NCBI GenBank assembly: GCA_944323165.1
Contig: CALURK010000002.1
Location: 62,001 to 126,000 of the forward strand
Direction of reading: 5' to 3'
Origin: Candidatus Gastranaerophilales bacterium
Lineage (GTDB): Bacteria; Cyanobacteriota; Vampirovibrionia; Gastranaerophilales; Gastranaerophilaceae
Length of the DNA: 64,000 bases
The notes under the pieces were generated by a model. The model saw nothing but the letters and a program-made list of their open reading frames with translations, made no database searches and was not told the origin of the DNA. Positions 3,234-33,310 of this stretch are shown piece by piece; the first letter of the stretch is position 1, and each line of letters begins with the position of its first letter. The translations under genes were made by a program, and so were the position numbers.

Positions 3234-3875
3234 ATGGGAATTACTATTGCACAAATTCAGGATGCAAAACTGAGAGAGTTAGCGGCAAAAGTTGACGGTT
3301 CATTCAAAGGAGAGACAAAAGGAAACAAAGTACTTGATGATTGCGAAATGGAAATTTTTACATCACAGGTTAAATCTGCCGGACTGGACGCTGAATACGA
3401 GGAGTTTTTGAAAATTCATAAACAAACTCAGGCAGCAGGAAAGGAGTTTGATGTTAATAAGGCAGCAACGGAACAAACAAGAATAGAAGAAAAAATTAAA
3501 ACCGCTAAAGAAAAAATCGCTAATTTACGTGAAAAACTTGCAGAAATAGAAAATCGTCCGGAATCTGCTAAGAAAGAAAAATGTAAGGCTATAGGCTGTT
3601 GGAGCGGTTTTGGTGTTGGTGCCATACCTGGAACTATAGCTTCTATCGTAATGGAAACTTTTATTCCGGCTGTTGTTCTGTCAGGGGCAGGTGCATTAGT
3701 CGGTCTAGGTATTGGTTTAGGGGTCTATTACTTAACCAGATCTAAAGACGAAGAAAAAGCTTACAGCGAAAACAATAAAAAAGAATATGCACAAACTCAG
3801 GCGGCATTGAAAGCAGCAGAGCAGGAATTACAGAAGAGCAAATTAGAATTACAACATTTTATGAATACTCTGTAA
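3234..3875 (+). CDS. Unknown protein with coiled coils flanking a hydrophobic hairpin (copy 1)
   Basis: I do not recognise this family. The 213-residue product starts at an ATG with an AAGGAGG site. The first 62 residues are almost identical to those of the next gene and include a stretch like a degraded EF-hand loop (ETKGNKVLDDCE, residues 27-38). Residues 70-112 are a charged, coiled-coil-like helix. Residues 118-168 are glycine-rich and hydrophobic, enough for a membrane hairpin, and end in YYLTRSK. The last 40 residues (TQAALKAAEQELQ and on) are another amphipathic helix. It is the first of a tandem pair downstream of a (GTA)17 tract. No signal peptide is apparent. A membrane-associated or secreted-effector-like scaffold is possible; function is unknown. 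Confidence 0.8.
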   Translation: MGITIAQIQDAKLRELAAKVDGSFKGETKGNKVLDDCEMEIFTSQVKSAGLDAEYEEFLKIHKQTQAAGKEFDVNKAATEQTRIEEKIKTAKEKIANLREKLAEIENRPESAKKEKCKAIGCWSGFGVGAIPGTIASIVMETFIPAVVLSGAGALVGLGIGLGVYYLTRSKDEEKAYSENNKKEYAQTQAALKAAEQELQKSKLELQHFMNTL

Positions 3876-3954: not shown

Positions 3955-4602
3955 ATGGGGATTACTATTGCACAAATTCAGGACGCAAAACTGAGAGAGT
4001 TAGCGGCAAAAGTTGACGGTTCATTCGAAGGAGAGACAAAAGGAAACAAAGTACTTGATGATTGCGAAATGGGAATTTTTACATCTCAGGTTAAAGCCGC
4101 CGGACTGGACGCTGAGTACGAGGAGTTCTTGAAAATTCATAAACAAACTCCGGCTGCAGGAAAGGAATTTGACGTTAGTACGGCAGCTGCGGAAAAAACT
4201 AGATTAGAAGCAAACGTTCAAAAAGCTGAAGCAAAAGTTGCTAATTTACGTGAAAAACTTGCAGAAATAAAAAATCGTCCAACTGCAAAAAGAAATGATT
4301 ATAGGGCAAATGGGACAATCTATGGTGCGTTGTCCTCAGGTACAGTATTTGGCGGTTTACTTGCTCTAGGCTCTAGGCATAATCGTATCAGCAAGTTCTT
4401 TTGCGGCGGAATGCTTAGCGGACTTGTCGGCGGTGTTTGCGGCGGACTTATCGGTATGGGGATTTATTACTTGACCAGATCTAAAAAAGAGAGCGAAAGC
4501 AATAAAAATGAATATGCACAAACTCAGGCGGCATTGAAAGCTGCTGAACAGGAATTACAGCAGAGCAAATTAGAATTACAACATTTTATGAATAATCTGT
4601 AA
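3955..4602 (+). CDS. Unknown protein with coiled coils flanking a hydrophobic hairpin (copy 2)
   Basis: This 215-residue protein is a tandem paralogue of the preceding one and starts with the same AAGGAGG spacing. The N-terminal 62 residues differ at only about four positions (for example K25E and E40G), and the C-terminal 40 residues are nearly identical. The middle differs: its hydrophobic part (residues 120-172) is longer and reads GTVFGGLLALG, then GLVGGVCGGLIGMGIYYLT. Conserved ends around a diverged glycine-rich membrane segment point to gene duplication followed by divergence or exchange of the middle. The stretch after each copy (AATTTTATATACATACAAC) is also duplicated, so the repeat unit includes intergenic DNA. 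Function is unknown. Confidence 0.8.
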   Translation: MGITIAQIQDAKLRELAAKVDGSFEGETKGNKVLDDCEMGIFTSQVKAAGLDAEYEEFLKIHKQTPAAGKEFDVSTAAAEKTRLEANVQKAEAKVANLREKLAEIKNRPTAKRNDYRANGTIYGALSSGTVFGGLLALGSRHNRISKFFCGGMLSGLVGGVCGGLIGMGIYYLTRSKKESESNKNEYAQTQAALKAAEQELQQSKLELQHFMNNL

Positions 4603-4796: not shown

Positions 4797-5118
4797 ACAA
4801 GTTACATATAAACCAAATGGTTACAACACTTTTGCAGAAGATGCAGCTCTTTTATTTAATACTGTAAATAAATATTTTACCGGAAAAAATCCTAATATAA
4901 CCCCTGAAGAGCAGGTACAATTAAGAGCAGATATTGCAAAACAAAAGAAACCGATGGGCGGAGTATGTACTGATTCAGGTAGGACAGAGCTTGACATATA
5001 CGGAGGTATTGATTTTGTCCTAAAAACATTCTCTGATGAATCTTCAGAAGGCGGCAAGAACATAACGCCGAATGAAGTATATCAAATGTATGAAATGTTC
5101 CATAAATGGACTGAATAG
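4753..5118 (+). CDS. Unknown protein, probably the 3' part of a frame-shifted gene
   Basis: This 121-codon frame encodes a soluble, polar protein I do not recognise (TYRNSNGKQVTYKPNGY, then VNKYFTGKNPNITPEEQ and a C-terminal ITPNEVYQMYEMFHKW). Its own ATG lacks a properly spaced ribosome site, whereas the overlapping frame at 4662 has a good one. The T6 run at 4765-4770 is the likely junction; corrected, the product would be about 151 residues. It follows the tandem pair at 3234-4602 with a similar leader (aaaacacgaggatatta), so it may be cotranscribed. A terminator follows at 5141. The TPEE and TPNE helix starts give it a weakly calcium-protein-like look, but no full EF-hand is visible. Confidence 0.6.
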   Translation: MMTPFFITYRNSNGKQVTYKPNGYNTFAEDAALLFNTVNKYFTGKNPNITPEEQVQLRADIAKQKKPMGGVCTDSGRTELDIYGGIDFVLKTFSDESSEGGKNITPNEVYQMYEMFHKWTE

Positions 5119-5140
5119 AAATAAATAATACAAGTTGTCA

Positions 5141-5174
5141 GGCGGGTAAAGCATAAGCTTGCCCGCCTTTTTAA
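5141..5174 (+). terminator. Rho-independent terminator after the 3234-5118 cluster
   Basis: GGCGGG at 5141-5146 pairs with CCCGCC at 5162-5167, and AGC (5150-5152) with GCT (5157-5159), around a small loop. A T-run follows at 5168-5172. Confidence 0.85.
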
Positions 5175-5326
5175 TTTAATATTCTGGTAGGCACGCATTA
5201 TCACTTAAAAGTTTTGTTTTCTTATTTAATGCCCCTTCGCCCACCCTTGCTTACGAAACTACGGTTCATCACCCCTCACAAACTTAATATAAGTTCGAAA
5301 AGTCGACATTAACTACAAACGAGGGA

Positions 5327-5355
5327 TTGACAAAACAATAAAACTATTTTACTAT
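5327..5355 (+). promoter_or_regulatory. Strong sigma-70 type promoter
   Basis: A perfect -35 TTGACA (5327-5332) is followed by a 17-base spacer and -10 TACTAT (5350-5355). It predicts a transcript starting near 5362 that carries the leader peptide at 5391 and about 240 bases of structured leader before the gene at 5602. Confidence 0.8.
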
Positions 5356-5390
5356 GTCTTTGTATCGATATATCGATTCAAAGGGAAAAT

Positions 5391-5447
5391 ATGAACGAAC
5401 AAATTTTAAACAAACTCAATTTATCTTGGTGGCGCTGGTCAGTTTAA
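5391..5447 (+). CDS. Tryptophan-rich 18-residue leader peptide (candidate)
   Basis: An AAAGGG ribosome site six bases upstream precedes an 18-codon frame, MNEQILNKLNLSWWRWSV. Three of its last six codons are TGG. The stop codon lies inside the left arm of an 11-base-pair hairpin. A strong promoter sits 36 bases upstream. This is the layout of a tryptophan attenuator leader. Oddly, the gene that follows (5602) is not a tryptophan-synthesis gene and contains no tryptophan at all. The peptide could be a relic of a lost trp operon or a sensor for something else. Confidence 0.45.
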   Translation: MNEQILNKLNLSWWRWSV

Positions 5448-5559
5448 CTGCCGGCATGTAGTCACGTTTTGAGTTCAGATATCGGCAGTTAAAGCCTAAA
5501 GGTTTTGTCTGCTTGTTATGGCTTGTGGAAGTTAAAATTTGTAAACAAAACCGTTTAGG
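5437..5559 (+). promoter_or_regulatory. Structured RNA leader with alternative hairpins
   Basis: TTTAACTGCCG at 5443-5453 pairs perfectly with CGGCAGTTAAA at 5483-5493. The same left arm can pair with GGTCAGT just upstream (5437-5443), inside the Trp codons, so the two pairings exclude each other. A second stem joins CCTAAAGGTTTTGT (5495-5508) to ACAAAACC-G-TTTAGG (5545-5559), 14 pairs with one bulged G. I do not recognise a known riboswitch class. Confidence 0.55.
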
Positions 5560-5601
5560 AAAAGCAATTTTTAGTCTTTACAAGTTTTAGGAATATGAAT
5601 T

Positions 5602-6819
5602 ATGTCATCAAATAACAACAAAATTTTAATAGATACATTGCCGAAGTCGTTGAAGCCTGTAGCAAAATTTATTCGACATAAAGATCAGGCTGCGGGGCTT
5701 TCCACGACAAGGTTTATTCAGGATGTTTCTACAAGTTTGCTTCCGAAAGTTGTTTTCTCAAGAAGTATTGCCGATCTTACTGAGAATACATTTTTGGAAA
5801 CATCTGAAGAAGCGCTAATTTACTTTGTACCAACAATTTTAGGGGAGAAAGTTGCAAGAAAGATTTTTTCTAAAGGTTTAAATAATGATTTAAAAAAAGA
5901 TGTTGCAACGACTGGTGTAGAACTTTTAGAAAAAGGAGGAGCTAAAAATAAAAAAGTTATTCCCGTAAAAGCTGCAATTGCTCTTGCTGCAATGGCAATT
6001 CCGTTAACAGAATTTTCTCTCAATTACATAAAAAATTTGATGACATTGAAGTTGTTTAAGAAAAGTGATTTTAAAAATATCGCTTCATTGGAAAAAACAG
6101 ATGAGGATATAAAGCACCAAGAGAAAGTAAAAAAGAGTGCTCAAAAACATATCGGAATAGCCGCCGGAATCTACGCAGGCTGTCTAGGTTTAGCAGCACT
6201 ATTGGCAACAAAAGGCAAAAATTCAAAGGTTTTACAAAATATTTCAGAATTTATAGTTGCTCCCGGATCTAAAATGTTTAAAAAATCTCCAAAAGCTAAA
6301 AATTTCTTCAACAAATATACCTGTATGGACTTTAATAATCAAAACGGAAGGTTAGTTTTGAGTAAAGGACAATTAACAACTTGCGTACTTATAGGAGGTG
6401 CCGGATATTTTGGTGCTTCTGCTGACAGAGGTAAAGAAAATTTGAAAGAAACAGCTACAAGATTTCCTCTAATGGGACTTTATGTTATTACAGGGAGCGA
6501 ACTTGTTGAAAAAGGTTTTAGAAAACTTTTACAAAAGATGGGAAAATGTAAGGATTTGTTTGATAAAGATGCGAATGTTCCTAATTTTGATAAGTTAGAA
6601 GATATTGCAAAGAAGCTTTCTAAAGAGAAAAATACAAAAATTGAGCAAGAGTATAAATCTTTAGTTAAGCAAAAAGCTCTTATATTTGGTTTACCGTATT
6701 TATTCTCAATCGGAGTGATGGGATTTTTTGTTGCAGGAATGACGAATTATTTTACAAAAAAACGGTATCAGAATGCTAAAAAAGCGGAATTAGAAAGTTT
6801 AAATAACAAAAACCGGTAG
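5602..6819 (+). CDS. Unknown multi-pass membrane protein, tryptophan-free
   Basis: I do not recognise this 405-residue protein. It has several hydrophobic helices (near residues 125-150, 185-205, 255-275, 290-305 and 360-385) separated by long lysine-rich cytosolic-looking segments, and no classical signal peptide. It contains no tryptophan. The organisation (soluble N-terminal 120 residues, alternating membrane helices and basic linkers) resembles the membrane protein at 62552-64000, although the sequences are not obviously alignable. It is expressed from the long leader described above and ends in a terminator that overlaps its stop codon. Function is unknown; a lineage-specific envelope protein is the simplest guess. 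Confidence 0.75.
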   Translation: MSSNNNKILIDTLPKSLKPVAKFIRHKDQAAGLSTTRFIQDVSTSLLPKVVFSRSIADLTENTFLETSEEALIYFVPTILGEKVARKIFSKGLNNDLKKDVATTGVELLEKGGAKNKKVIPVKAAIALAAMAIPLTEFSLNYIKNLMTLKLFKKSDFKNIASLEKTDEDIKHQEKVKKSAQKHIGIAAGIYAGCLGLAALLATKGKNSKVLQNISEFIVAPGSKMFKKSPKAKNFFNKYTCMDFNNQNGRLVLSKGQLTTCVLIGGAGYFGASADRGKENLKETATRFPLMGLYVITGSELVEKGFRKLLQKMGKCKDLFDKDANVPNFDKLEDIAKKLSKEKNTKIEQEYKSLVKQKALIFGLPYLFSIGVMGFFVAGMTNYFTKKRYQNAKKAELESLNNKNR

Positions 6820-6835
6820 ATTTTAATACTACCGG
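6813..6835. terminator. Bidirectional hairpin between convergent genes
   Basis: CCGGTAG (6813-6819) pairs with CTACCGG (6829-6835). The left arm includes the TAG stop of the 5602 gene. Only short T-runs follow, so strength is uncertain. Confidence 0.6.
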
Positions 6836-6867
6836 CTTACAAAATTTTCTCCTATTCTCTTAATCTG

Positions 6868-7755
6868 TTAGTCTGCATAACAGCTAAGAGAATAACTGCC
6901 TCTTAGTTTATTTATAGCTCTCATTTCTGTTTGTCTGATACATTCTTTTGTAACACCGAATAATTTTCCGATATCTTCTAATGTTGTTCTTGCAAAATTT
7001 TCCAAACCAAATCTCATTTTTATTACGGTTTGTTCACGTTCTTTTAATGTAGAAACGACGTTTGCAATTTCTTTTTTTAATTCTTCATACTCTATAGATT
7101 CTTCAATATTTGTATTTTCATCTTCTAAAACATCTGCTACATTTAATTCGCTTCCGTTTTTGCCGTCAAAGCTGCCTTCTATTGATACTGTTGTTGTGTA
7201 AGCTGATAAGAATGTGTCAATTTTTTCAGGTTCCAAATTCATCTTCTCTGCAACATCTTTTGTTGAAACTTGACAGTTGTATGCTCTTTCCATTTCTGTT
7301 TTGATTTTAGAAAATTTTGATAAGGTTTCTTGAATATATACAGGAATTTTCATACAGTATGATTGCTCTGAAATTGCTTTGAACATTGCTTGTTTTATCC
7401 ACCAGCTTGCGTAAGTTGAAAATCTGTATCCTAATTCCGGGTTGAATTTCTCAACAGCTATCATTAAGCCTAAATTCCCTTCTTGAATTAAATCAATCAT
7501 CGGAAGTTTTGAAACGTGAATTGCTTTTCTTGCAATAGTTAAAACCAATTTTAAATTAGATTGAACTAATATTTTTTTTGCCTCTTTGTCACCTGTCTTT
7601 GCAAGTCTTGCAACTTCTTTTTCTTCATCTGCATTAAGTGATTTGAACGAATTAACTTTTCTAACGTAAGACATCATATCATTACCGTTAAATGATACAA
7701 AACTGTTTCTTGAAGGGTTGGTTGTTTTTTTCATTTGAATAGCTGTTTCTTTCAT
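6868..7755 (-). CDS. RNA polymerase sigma factor, sigma-70 family (group 2-like)
   Basis: This sigma subunit directs RNA polymerase to a promoter class. Region 2 spans about residues 62-130 and includes DLIQEGNLGLMIAVEKF and YRFSTYASWWIKQA, the -10 recognition and melting elements. Region 3 follows (ISEQSYCMKIPVYIQE). Region 4 ends with the helix-turn-helix TLEDIGKLFGVTKECIRQ, the -35 reader. It is 295 residues, lacks the long N-terminal region 1.1 of a primary sigma, and its region 4 differs from RpoD consensus (FGVTKECIRQTE in place of GVTRERIRQIE), so it is probably an alternative sigma factor. The N-terminus has the SFVSFNG stretch seen in other proteins here. It is transcribed alone. Confidence 0.9.
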   Translation of the reverse strand: MKETAIQMKKTTNPSRNSFVSFNGNDMMSYVRKVNSFKSLNADEEKEVARLAKTGDKEAKKILVQSNLKLVLTIARKAIHVSKLPMIDLIQEGNLGLMIAVEKFNPELGYRFSTYASWWIKQAMFKAISEQSYCMKIPVYIQETLSKFSKIKTEMERAYNCQVSTKDVAEKMNLEPEKIDTFLSAYTTTVSIEGSFDGKNGSELNVADVLEDENTNIEESIEYEELKKEIANVVSTLKEREQTVIKMRFGLENFARTTLEDIGKLFGVTKECIRQTEMRAINKLRGSYSLSCYAD

Positions 7756-30535: not shown

Positions 30536-33310
30536 TTAAGCTTTTTTAATTTCTGTTAAGGTCGGATCTAATAATCTTCTTCCAATGTTATCAAAATTTA
30601 TGGAAAATAAAGTTTTATTTCCGTACTTTATCATTTTTTCAACTACACCGCTGCCATATTTTGCGTGAGTTACTGTATCTCCTTGTTGAATCGGATCACT
30701 TACTACCATATCTTCTTGAGGGATATCGGCATTATATACAGGAACTATTGGGGTAGATGAATTTTTTGTTTCTAAAATTTCATTTTCGTTATCTTCTTCT
30801 AAGTCTATAGTTTCATTATTGCTCTCCAAAATTCCCTCATTTTCTGAACTTGAACTATCTTCTTCAAGTAAGTCCCCTTCATCCGATACATCTTCTAAGA
30901 TATTTTCATCATTATTTAATTCGTCTATAAAATCTAAATCTGAATCTGAAATATCATCATCTTTTCTTGTAGTGAATACTTTGTCAACATCTTTAACAAT
31001 TTGTTTGTCAATATCTTCCTCTGATCTGGTATCTTCTTCCAAATCATCTTCTGTCATGTCGACTAAAATATCATCCTCATCTGCTTCATTTGGATCCAAT
31101 TCAACTATTTCATCAAAATCCGAATTATCATCCGTTGATATTGGAAGAACTTCTTGTTCCGATGACATCTCTTCTAAAGGCTGAACTTCTTCTTTTTCGT
31201 CCTCAACATTCTCTAAATCAATGTCAATATCTTCCGGAATTTCTATTTCTTCCGGATTATTCTCATCAGAAATTTCCTCAATAGGAGCTTCCGGCATTTC
31301 TACTTCTTCCAGCTTATCTTCACCAGTAATCTCCTCGATAGGGGCTTCTGGAATTTCATCTTCCACTTCTTCTTCCGGCAATATATTTTCTATTTCGGAA
31401 TCAAGTGTTATTTCTTCTGGCTCCAGATTCTCAACAGGGATATAATCTTGTATTTCTTCAGACGTTTCAATATCATTTTCAAAGGCATCCTCTAACGGAA
31501 TTTCTTCTATGGTATCTTCGGAAATTGCTTCCTGTAAAATTTCATCATTCTCAGATAGGCTTATAGGATTTTCTTCTAAAAAGTCCTCTTCAGAAGAATT
31601 TTCAAGAACGCTTATTTCCTCTAATGTTTCACCAATGACAGCCCTTTCAGATTGTTCTTGTTCAAGATTATCGGTTTGAAATTCTAAATCCTTTTCAACT
31701 AATTCTTCGTCATCTGAAGAATCATCACTGAAAAACAAGTTGTCTGCAGGAGGTACTAATTCCTCTTTTGCAGCATTGGAAATAATATTATCTGATTGTT
31801 CTTCTATATTTGCGATAATCTCTTCGTTAGAGAGTATATTCTCTGTATTTTCATCTTCTTTATCTTCTTCTATAATCTCAGGTTCAATAGTTTCTGGCTC
31901 AGATATGTCGGTATTGTCGCTTTCTTCTTGAAGGGAAGCTTCTATATCATCCTCTGAGATTTCTTCAGGTTCTGAAATTGCAGTGCCATCCGCGTCAGCG
32001 GCAACTACATCTTCTTCTGAAGAAGAGTCAGCTTTTACTTTTTCCTGGACTGATTCTGTATTTAAAGGTGCTTCTTCTTTGTCAATAGCATTTTCTTCAG
32101 TTTTTTCTTCCTCTGTAATTTCTTGTTTTTGACATGGAATTACTTCATTAATCAATTTGGAAGAAGATATTAAAGGTATGTAATTGACAGCTTCTCCGGC
32201 AATTAAGTATGTACCTTTGCAAAGTGATTTTAAGAATGTTTTATATACTTTAAAAATATCATTATTTGTAAGTGAAGGTGAGATTATAAAATTATCAAAA
32301 AGATTTTTTATGTCATTTAAGTATTTAAACTTAGAATGAGTTATAAAAGTTGTAGGCACAGAACCTTCAAGTATATTTTTTAAATTCTTTTTGCTTGTTG
32401 TATTTGATAATTCCAAAAATACCTGTAAACCATTTTTGTTCAGCATTTTTTCGTATAAAAATGCTAAATAACGGTTCTGAAAACTGCTGTCCAGTTTCGA
32501 TAAATCAATTACTGAACAACTTTGTTCCAGAATTCTGTCAATTTTGTCGGCTTCAACTTTATTTTTTGCAAAATATCCGAGCTTATGGAATTTAGCAAGT
32601 TTATTTTTTAGAACAAGAAGCTTAAAGACATGGGATTTATCCACCATCTCATCGACAATATTTTTTAAAGTTTCAAACGGAACAAACGGAACCGTTTTCG
32701 AATAATCCGCGAGATCTTTAAAAATCTCTACAATAAGAGATTTGCTATCGCTTGTCGCATCATTAAGGCAATCTTGGTACATAAACGCTAGTGAAGCTGT
32801 ATCCAGAGGTAACTTAAAATCAACCCCTGCTGTGAATTTCTTTGCATTAATTATTCCAAGAGTATCTATAATAACGACTTTTTTGTTTATATTGTTAAAT
32901 TGTTTTGTAAGATTTCTAACTATAATGTTATTTTCTTCTTTATCATCGATGCTCATAAGCATTTTTTTGTCAAAAGCTGACGCATCAATTATAATATTCA
33001 AATCTTTTCCCGGCATTACGCCTGCAATAATCGGCTCATTCGCATTTATTGAATTGTTAAGTATATTGAATGTAAAGTCCTTAATTTCAGAATCTTCAGG
33101 AGGAAGAGTCTTATCATAGGGCTGTAAAGTGCCATCGTATAAAAATAGAATTTTAGCTATTGCAATCGAATTTATTCCGGAACGTTTAATTTGAATAATT
33201 TGAGCAATATAATTCTTTGCAAGCCCTGAAACTTGTATAAAAGAGGATAAGCTTATACTCTCATCAGCTTCAAATTTTATAAAACCATCTCTTACTTCTA
33301 AAATCTTCAT
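30536..33310 (-). CDS. Acidic protein with degenerate HerA-like domain and UvrD/PcrA-type Tudor tail
   Basis: The 924-residue protein has three parts. Residues 1-390 look like a HerA/DUF87 ATPase, with an HAS-barrel-like start (MKILEVRDGFIKFEADESIS) and a Walker-B-like strand plus IDLSKLDSSFQNR. The P-loop position reads GVMPGKDLN, so nucleotide binding is doubtful. Residues about 395-865 are extremely acidic, low complexity, with short repeats (PEAPIEEI). Residues about 870-924 (GDTVTHAKYGSGVVEKM, then GRRLLDPTLTEIKK) resemble the C-terminal Tudor-like domain of UvrD/PcrA, which binds RNA polymerase. The acidic tract and Tudor tail together suggest a protein that binds polymerase, nucleoid or DNA-mimic partners. 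It has no helicase motifs. Confidence 0.6.
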   Translation of the reverse strand: MKILEVRDGFIKFEADESISLSSFIQVSGLAKNYIAQIIQIKRSGINSIAIAKILFLYDGTLQPYDKTLPPEDSEIKDFTFNILNNSINANEPIIAGVMPGKDLNIIIDASAFDKKMLMSIDDKEENNIIVRNLTKQFNNINKKVVIIDTLGIINAKKFTAGVDFKLPLDTASLAFMYQDCLNDATSDSKSLIVEIFKDLADYSKTVPFVPFETLKNIVDEMVDKSHVFKLLVLKNKLAKFHKLGYFAKNKVEADKIDRILEQSCSVIDLSKLDSSFQNRYLAFLYEKMLNKNGLQVFLELSNTTSKKNLKNILEGSVPTTFITHSKFKYLNDIKNLFDNFIISPSLTNNDIFKVYKTFLKSLCKGTYLIAGEAVNYIPLISSSKLINEVIPCQKQEITEEEKTEENAIDKEEAPLNTESVQEKVKADSSSEEDVVAADADGTAISEPEEISEDDIEASLQEESDNTDISEPETIEPEIIEEDKEDENTENILSNEEIIANIEEQSDNIISNAAKEELVPPADNLFFSDDSSDDEELVEKDLEFQTDNLEQEQSERAVIGETLEEISVLENSSEEDFLEENPISLSENDEILQEAISEDTIEEIPLEDAFENDIETSEEIQDYIPVENLEPEEITLDSEIENILPEEEVEDEIPEAPIEEITGEDKLEEVEMPEAPIEEISDENNPEEIEIPEDIDIDLENVEDEKEEVQPLEEMSSEQEVLPISTDDNSDFDEIVELDPNEADEDDILVDMTEDDLEEDTRSEEDIDKQIVKDVDKVFTTRKDDDISDSDLDFIDELNNDENILEDVSDEGDLLEEDSSSSENEGILESNNETIDLEEDNENEILETKNSSTPIVPVYNADIPQEDMVVSDPIQQGDTVTHAKYGSGVVEKMIKYGNKTLFSINFDNIGRRLLDPTLTEIKKA

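Follow-up and report, generated by a model that had tools for sequence, protein, structure and literature searches.

Why should a gene whose protein contains no tryptophan be preceded by what looks like a tryptophan-sensing leader? In the attenuator of the Escherichia coli trp operon (trpL), a short leader with tandem UGG codons is accompanied by segments that pair as 1:2, 2:3 and 3:4, and by a terminator. A comparable arrangement was noticed in the window analysed here, a stretch of 64,000 nucleotides from contig CALURK010000002.1 of a gut bacterium, Candidatus Gastranaerophilales bacterium. A preliminary description of the locus, made from its letters, proposed either tryptophan-sensing control of a new target or a relic of a trp operon. 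Our comparison of related loci supports the first proposal, through the leader kept at 129 of 131 loci, covarying 1:2, 2:3 and 3:4 stems, and terminators in about half of the relatives. The leader is very probably a trp-type attenuator that responds to tryptophan through a translating ribosome, and its target, a Trp-free membrane protein confined to this lineage, probably serves tryptophan acquisition. The features of the locus, in window coordinates, are the following.

5327 to 5355, plus strand: sigma-70-type promoter TTGACA-17-TACTAT, consensus match 10/12, with TTGACA similarly placed in the related loci compared
5358 to 5383, no strand: palindrome CTTTGTATCGATATATCGATTCAAAG across the predicted start site, with one mismatch in the window copy
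5391 to 5447, plus strand: leader peptide MNEQILNKLNLSWWRWSV and its stop, with tandem Trp codons at 5427-5432
5413 to 5419, plus strand: segment a (Leu-Asn codons), which can pair with segment b at 5469-5475
5443 to 5453, plus strand: segment 2, including the leader stop codon, which pairs with segment 3 in an antiterminator-like stem 2:3
5469 to 5475, plus strand: segment b, partner of a, in a helix compared with shuffles
5483 to 5496, plus strand: segment 3, which pairs with segment 2 (5443-5453) or segment 4 (5501-5512)
5498 to 5512, plus strand: segment 4, which pairs with 3 (terminator position, U-run absent) or 6 (5545-5555)
5533 to 5545, plus strand: 5' arm of the ribosome-binding-site-proximal stem, which can pair with 5577-5589, no covariation
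5545 to 5555, plus strand: segment 6, partner of 4, crossing the ribosome-binding-site-proximal stem
5577 to 5592, plus strand: 3' arm of the ribosome-binding-site-proximal stem, flush at its end with the Shine-Dalgarno AGGA (5589-5592)
5602 to 6819, plus strand: predicted membrane protein of 405 aa without Trp, for which Pfam, NCBIfam and PDB gave no relative

The leader frame carries TGG codons at 5427, 5430 and 5436 and ends with TAA at 5445-5447. The three TGG codons near its end are thus present as first described, and the stop does lie within the left arm of a perfect 11-bp stem (5443-5453 with 5483-5493). From relatives we gathered 131 non-identical orthologs of the 405-aa protein whose genes have a start codon. 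In 129 of them a short frame with TGGTGG lies upstream, and the other two loci (L192 and L200) bear a single-Trp version of the leader, while a WW leader precedes none of 20 members of a paralogous subfamily (38-44% identity). The leader peptides at the ortholog loci comprise 121 distinct sequences with the conserved core LNxxWW, the third Trp of the window copy varying across the family, and the leader is retained across orthologs down to about 45% identity. The codons for LNxxWW occur a single time in the bacterium's own genome. Among controls, such a leader precedes 1 of 51 window ORFs (the leader's own target gene) and none of the 85 ORFs that neighbour it in related loci. When TGGTGG was planted in shuffled flanks, it landed in a frame of this kind in 741 of 2580 trials (29%), compared with 129 of 131 observed; the frequency of WW leaders before orthologs exceeds chance. 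Rfam gave no match in the window at the gathering threshold, and only sub-threshold matches at six loci with E up to 1, the best relevant being Thr_leader (28 bits against 55, on L220). Hence, these searches placed the leader with neither T-boxes nor other Rfam leaders.

The gene behind this leader belongs to a family found only inside the order Gastranaerophilales, in 63 genomes, after a search of 244 genomes across the phylum. Relatives named by protein search are labelled Candidatus Gastranaerophilales, 'Melainabacteria' or 'bacterium', several of them from rumen samples. Two adjacent similar genes of unknown function (3234-3875 and 3955-4602) also lie in the window and are paired at one related locus (L039) too.

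As first described, the downstream ORF lacks any tryptophan. Residues of the window ORFs are 0.55% Trp, which gives a single 405-aa protein a probability of about 0.11 of having none, and several other window ORFs longer than 300 aa are Trp-free, including one of 924 aa (30536-33310). One Trp-free protein of this length is therefore unremarkable in this genome; the conservation of its Trp-freeness is remarkable. Tryptophan is absent from 126 of the 131 orthologs and present once in the other five, whereas all 20 paralogs hold two to five (Fisher P about 1e-20, with kinship ignored). At two positions every paralog has Trp, while the orthologs mostly have Leu (124/131) or Phe (115/131); three orthologs of low identity (L210, L218 and L221) keep Trp at the first of these. 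Trp-freeness tracks the leader, as one evolutionary split and not as many independent ones. Since this is one family split and Trp is rare in the genome, the avoidance is suggestive of selection rather than proof of it. Similar trends are described for biosynthetic enzymes with a low cognate bias (PMC4209129) and for Chlamydia, where selection acts on Trp content, including Down-Trp selection (PMC3937554). In those cases too a protein needed during starvation avoids the missing residue; unlike them, the present case concerns an auxotroph's membrane protein with a Trp leader of its own. The raised Trp content reported for Chlamydia Trp transporters (PMC3937554) is the opposite trend to that of our target.

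The gene content of the host fits a need for external tryptophan. Searches found no trpA in 34 of 34 genomes of the genus, no trpC in the 22 of 22 examined, and no trpB in the genome of the window, so the genus appears unable to make tryptophan. In some relatives trpR and trpB persist as a pair while trpA is missing, as would serve the salvage of indole; among them are two (G006 and G033) of the five genus members that lack a homolog of the window gene. This resembles the Chlamydia trpRBA salvage operon (PMC7755916); unlike that case, the window's genome lacks both trpR and trpB and has a leader-controlled gene instead. A whole trpEGDCFBA operon is present in one relative from another family (G044, locus L248), in which genes were named from order and sequence and trpA, trpB and trpC by searches; its proteins hold zero or one Trp each. 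In this single relative examined with a whole trp operon, no WW leader precedes trpE.

Searches of Pfam, NCBIfam and PDB with the 405-aa sequence returned no family, its AlphaFold model is poor (pLDDT 59) and yielded no fold match, which leaves the idea of a transporter without structural support, and Foldseek matches of such a model were set aside as meaningless. We infer that these Trp auxotrophs most likely use the protein to take up or salvage Trp. An alternative with somewhat less than an even chance, and compatible with the attenuator, is that the cell makes it under low Trp as a general starvation or envelope protein. The missing family and fold matches, the mere four or so hydrophobic stretches, and the absence of the gene from 10 of 43 trpA-less genomes are consistent with such a role. 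Against it, the presence of the gene follows the absence of trpA: orthologs occur in 33 of those 43 relatives and in 1 of 14 with trpA (P 5e-6, confounded by phylogeny, and with one genome that has only the paralog counted as lacking the ortholog). In addition, in one genome (G031, locus L116) a further homolog of the window gene, a partial one, adjoins trpB-trpR.

Transcription of the locus probably starts from the promoter at 5327-5355, whose boxes are TTGACA (5327-5332) and TACTAT (5350-5355). It had been called perfect: its sequence and 17-nt spacing are as described, while perfection did not hold, with 10 of 12 consensus matches and a -10 box of TACTAT. Promoter-like sites within 4800-7000 are rarer than in shuffled sequence. 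Across the predicted start lies the palindrome (5358-5383), a candidate operator or 5'-terminal RNA hairpin. It is near-perfect in the window and perfect with an invariant core in most relatives, and in the form TGTATCGATATATCGATACA it overlaps the predicted start in most loci of groups A and B, two of the four leader layouts (groups A, B, C and D) that we distinguished across the family. The palindrome suggests a second, protein-mediated control. That this control is the main one, exerted by a TrpR-like or other repressor, with RNA stems that matter and the leader as a minor fine tuner, we consider unlikely. The perfect copies in most A/B loci, the single copy of the exact core per genome wherever it is found, and the resemblance of its half-sites, TGTWWC..GWWACA, to palindromes before trpR-trpB in G006, G033 and G046 would all fit such a regulator. 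However, the window's own genome has no match to the TrpR family (PF01371) at E up to 1 and thus does not qualify the locus as part of a TrpR regulon, and the exact core is found at 25 of 40 group A/B loci and 1 of 89 other leader-bearing loci, whereas the leader is near universal. Small helix-turn-helix (HTH) proteins with weak TrpR matches were judged by eye to be of other HTH types. L116, L250, L251 and L252 are loci of relatives with a trpR-trpB pair but no trpA, and palindromes of the TGTWWC..GWWACA type are present at the promoters of these pairs.

The preliminary description proposed to fold the RNA stems across homologous loci and inspect them for covariation. Done in this way, 1:2, 2:3 and 3:4 covary in group D and 2:3 does so in the window's group, so that leader and stems are both conserved among close relatives. 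Groups C and D show a textbook layout, CCTGT / ACAGG / ACCTGT / ACAGGT-U-run. In the group D alignment (31 sequences), stem 1:2 is paired in 88.5% of cells with 28 double changes, 2:3 in 91.2% with 27, and 3:4 in 94.1% with 45, and each of the three covariation scores was reached by 0 of 500 shuffles. The sequences of group C are too uniform, and therefore give no covariation signal. A search for perfect four-segment repeats found 6-mers in 19 of 131 loci and in 32 of 5240 shuffles, with none in the window's group.

Intrinsic terminators follow the leader at 61 loci of groups C and D, about half of the family. The terminator rule selected 67 of the 131 loci, with two (L192 and L200) added by hand and three in groups A/B regarded as chance; a laxer rule fires in 94 of 1310 shuffles. 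In models of the 61 non-identical C/D loci, placing a ribosome at WW lowered terminator formation by more than 0.05 in 31 and raised it in none. Meanwhile, sister group B displays a covarying helix a:b on the leader codons (0/500 shuffles). Its helix e:f, in contact with the Shine-Dalgarno, covaries as well: it is paired in 99.2% of cells, and none of 500 shuffles attained its score. As aligned, the group's 2:3 does not stand out and is weakly supported, and a nested-fold model of Shine-Dalgarno accessibility on stalling gave a slight switch (6 of 12 up, 3 down).

The window belongs to group A, represented by 23 aligned sequences. Here the 2:3 stem, a perfect 11 bp in the window, is paired in 93.3% of cells, with four pairs showing double changes and 17 double changes in all, and its covariation score was reached by 0 of 500 shuffles. 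Stem 3:4 is weaker (81.8% paired, three double changes, 1 of 500 shuffles), and one of its columns never pairs. Helix a:b has 7 bp in the window, with a group mean of 10.6 compared with 6.9 in shuffles. The stem arm said to pair with the Trp-codon region does so weakly in the window, the equivalent 1:2 being strong and covarying in relatives. On this comparative evidence, the sensing half of the group A leader is well supported.

The output half in the window's group can be read from the sequence with less confidence, and perhaps concerns the initiation of translation. No intrinsic terminator was found in the window, where 3:4 lacks a U-run; because of this, we do not file the window as a classical transcription attenuator. 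The attenuator architecture first proposed thus stands for the leader and the alternative stems and falls for a classical terminator output in this copy. The second stem of that description exists as well, as 13 nt with 92% complementarity (5533-5545 with 5577-5589) rather than as 14 bp. In all 23 group A sequences the arm adjacent to the Shine-Dalgarno can take part in a helix of 7-13 bp, with two alternative partners. Helix 4:6 is paired in 94.5% of cells, and it crosses the ribosome-binding-site-proximal stem in a pseudoknot-like manner; neither of the two covaries. Simple modelling of Shine-Dalgarno occlusion was rejected as support for translational control in group A, since a nested-fold equilibrium model that ignores pseudoknots showed no consistent switch on stalling, with 7 of 25 more open and 9 of 25 less. 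Likewise rejected was a gene-proximal element shared elsewhere in the genome: BLAST matches were weak, the pattern was found once, and the matches inspected were unrelated or vaguely alike. A stem at another locus of the same genome (L002, 1500-1560), CTTGTAAAG..GCAATTTTT..TTTACAAGTTTTAG, lies before another gene and resembles the gene-proximal element of the window.

Comparison thus shows a conserved leader, alternative stems, terminators in relatives, avoidance of Trp and missing trp genes. On this footing we postulate the following course of events, in which stalling, polarity and the output step of the window copy are deduced. When charged tRNA-Trp is scarce, the ribosome would stall at the tandem UGG codons and mask segments a and 1, leaving 2 to pair with 3; formation of 2:3 would prevent 3:4, and the gene would be on. 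With ample Trp, the ribosome would reach the leader stop codon inside segment 2, and therefore 3 would pair with 4 and expression would stop. Outside the window's genus, 3:4 is an intrinsic terminator in most of the family. Within the genus, segment 4 appears to feed the crossing helices instead, namely 4:6 and the stem flush with the Shine-Dalgarno, and given the absent U-run this suggests that output is probably set at initiation of translation. The target protein could be produced during Trp starvation because it holds no Trp.

The opposite polarity would apply if free Trp in the exit tunnel arrested the ribosome, so that excess Trp induced the gene, for instance for export or use. In TnaC, arrest depends on a critical Trp at a fixed distance from a required final Pro before the stop. 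Such a mechanism finds some encouragement in group D, whose peptides, of about 24 residues, have a late third Trp about 12 residues after WW and directly before the stop. At L169, L177, L179, L188, L199, L213 and other group D loci, the leader runs past segment 2 and has this late Trp codon before the stop (TGxLSW[QR], then stop); stalling at this codon would put the ribosome over segment 2, so that the two Trp sites could act oppositely. The window peptide, however, has no Pro and does not match the TnaC type, peptides of groups A to C (those of group C end in WWRL) have no late Trp, starvation control agrees with the 1:2/2:3/3:4 layout, and the host appears to be an auxotroph, all of which makes a TnaC-like arrest quite improbable. 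Least probable is that the leader is a remnant or a transplant from a lost trp operon and no longer works: the genus does lack trpA and trpC where searched, but the leader and stems are kept at 129 of 131 loci with compensatory changes and over orthologs of as little as about 45% identity, and G044, the one such relative examined, has a full operon with no WW leader before it, so that this part of the preliminary description is refuted by conservation.

We return to the proposed starvation-responsive attenuator and how it relates to known systems. In the open-licence literature, judged by titles, we found nothing on point about attenuation or leader peptides for this group. Translational attenuators of the ermC type also use a leader peptide. 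For trp operons and for trpS2, attenuators whose leaders carry UGG codons have been described (PMC1262725). Like E. coli trpL and the Actinobacterial trp attenuators treated there (PMC1262725), the present family combines a tandem-UGG leader with 1:2, 2:3 and 3:4 pairing and, at about half of its loci, a U-run terminator. Unlike them, its target is a Trp-free membrane protein and not a trp gene, its host lacks the pathway genes searched, and the window's subgroup has no terminator. The candidate helix next to the Shine-Dalgarno, competing with upstream stems, is reminiscent of ermC-type attenuators and of translational T-boxes (PMC1262725); here, unlike in those, the signal would be uncharged tRNA-Trp sensed via a stalled ribosome, and occlusion is a candidate.

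Taken as a whole, the locus might represent a new family of Trp-scavenging membrane proteins in Trp-auxotrophic gut Gastranaerophilales. The WW-leader attenuator would allow expression only in Trp starvation, and the removal of Trp, with Leu and Phe in place of the ancestral residues, would let the protein be made at the time of need. Within the family, the attenuator would have shifted from terminating transcription to controlling translation in a pseudoknot-like manner without a terminator. We hold this full scenario only tentatively and think it rather less likely than its failure in some part. Since the family includes versions of the attenuator with and without a terminator, a switch of output level is open to study, and the leader-controlled subfamily that avoids Trp, beside paralogs that do not, offers a natural experiment on the avoidance of a scarce residue. 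If true, our reading would carry amino-acid attenuation beyond the biosynthetic operons of organisms that make the amino acid, to a membrane protein of an auxotroph. It would also provide a handle that points to the function of an unknown family of genes in mostly uncultured inhabitants of the gut, and the family's expression would report Trp starvation there.
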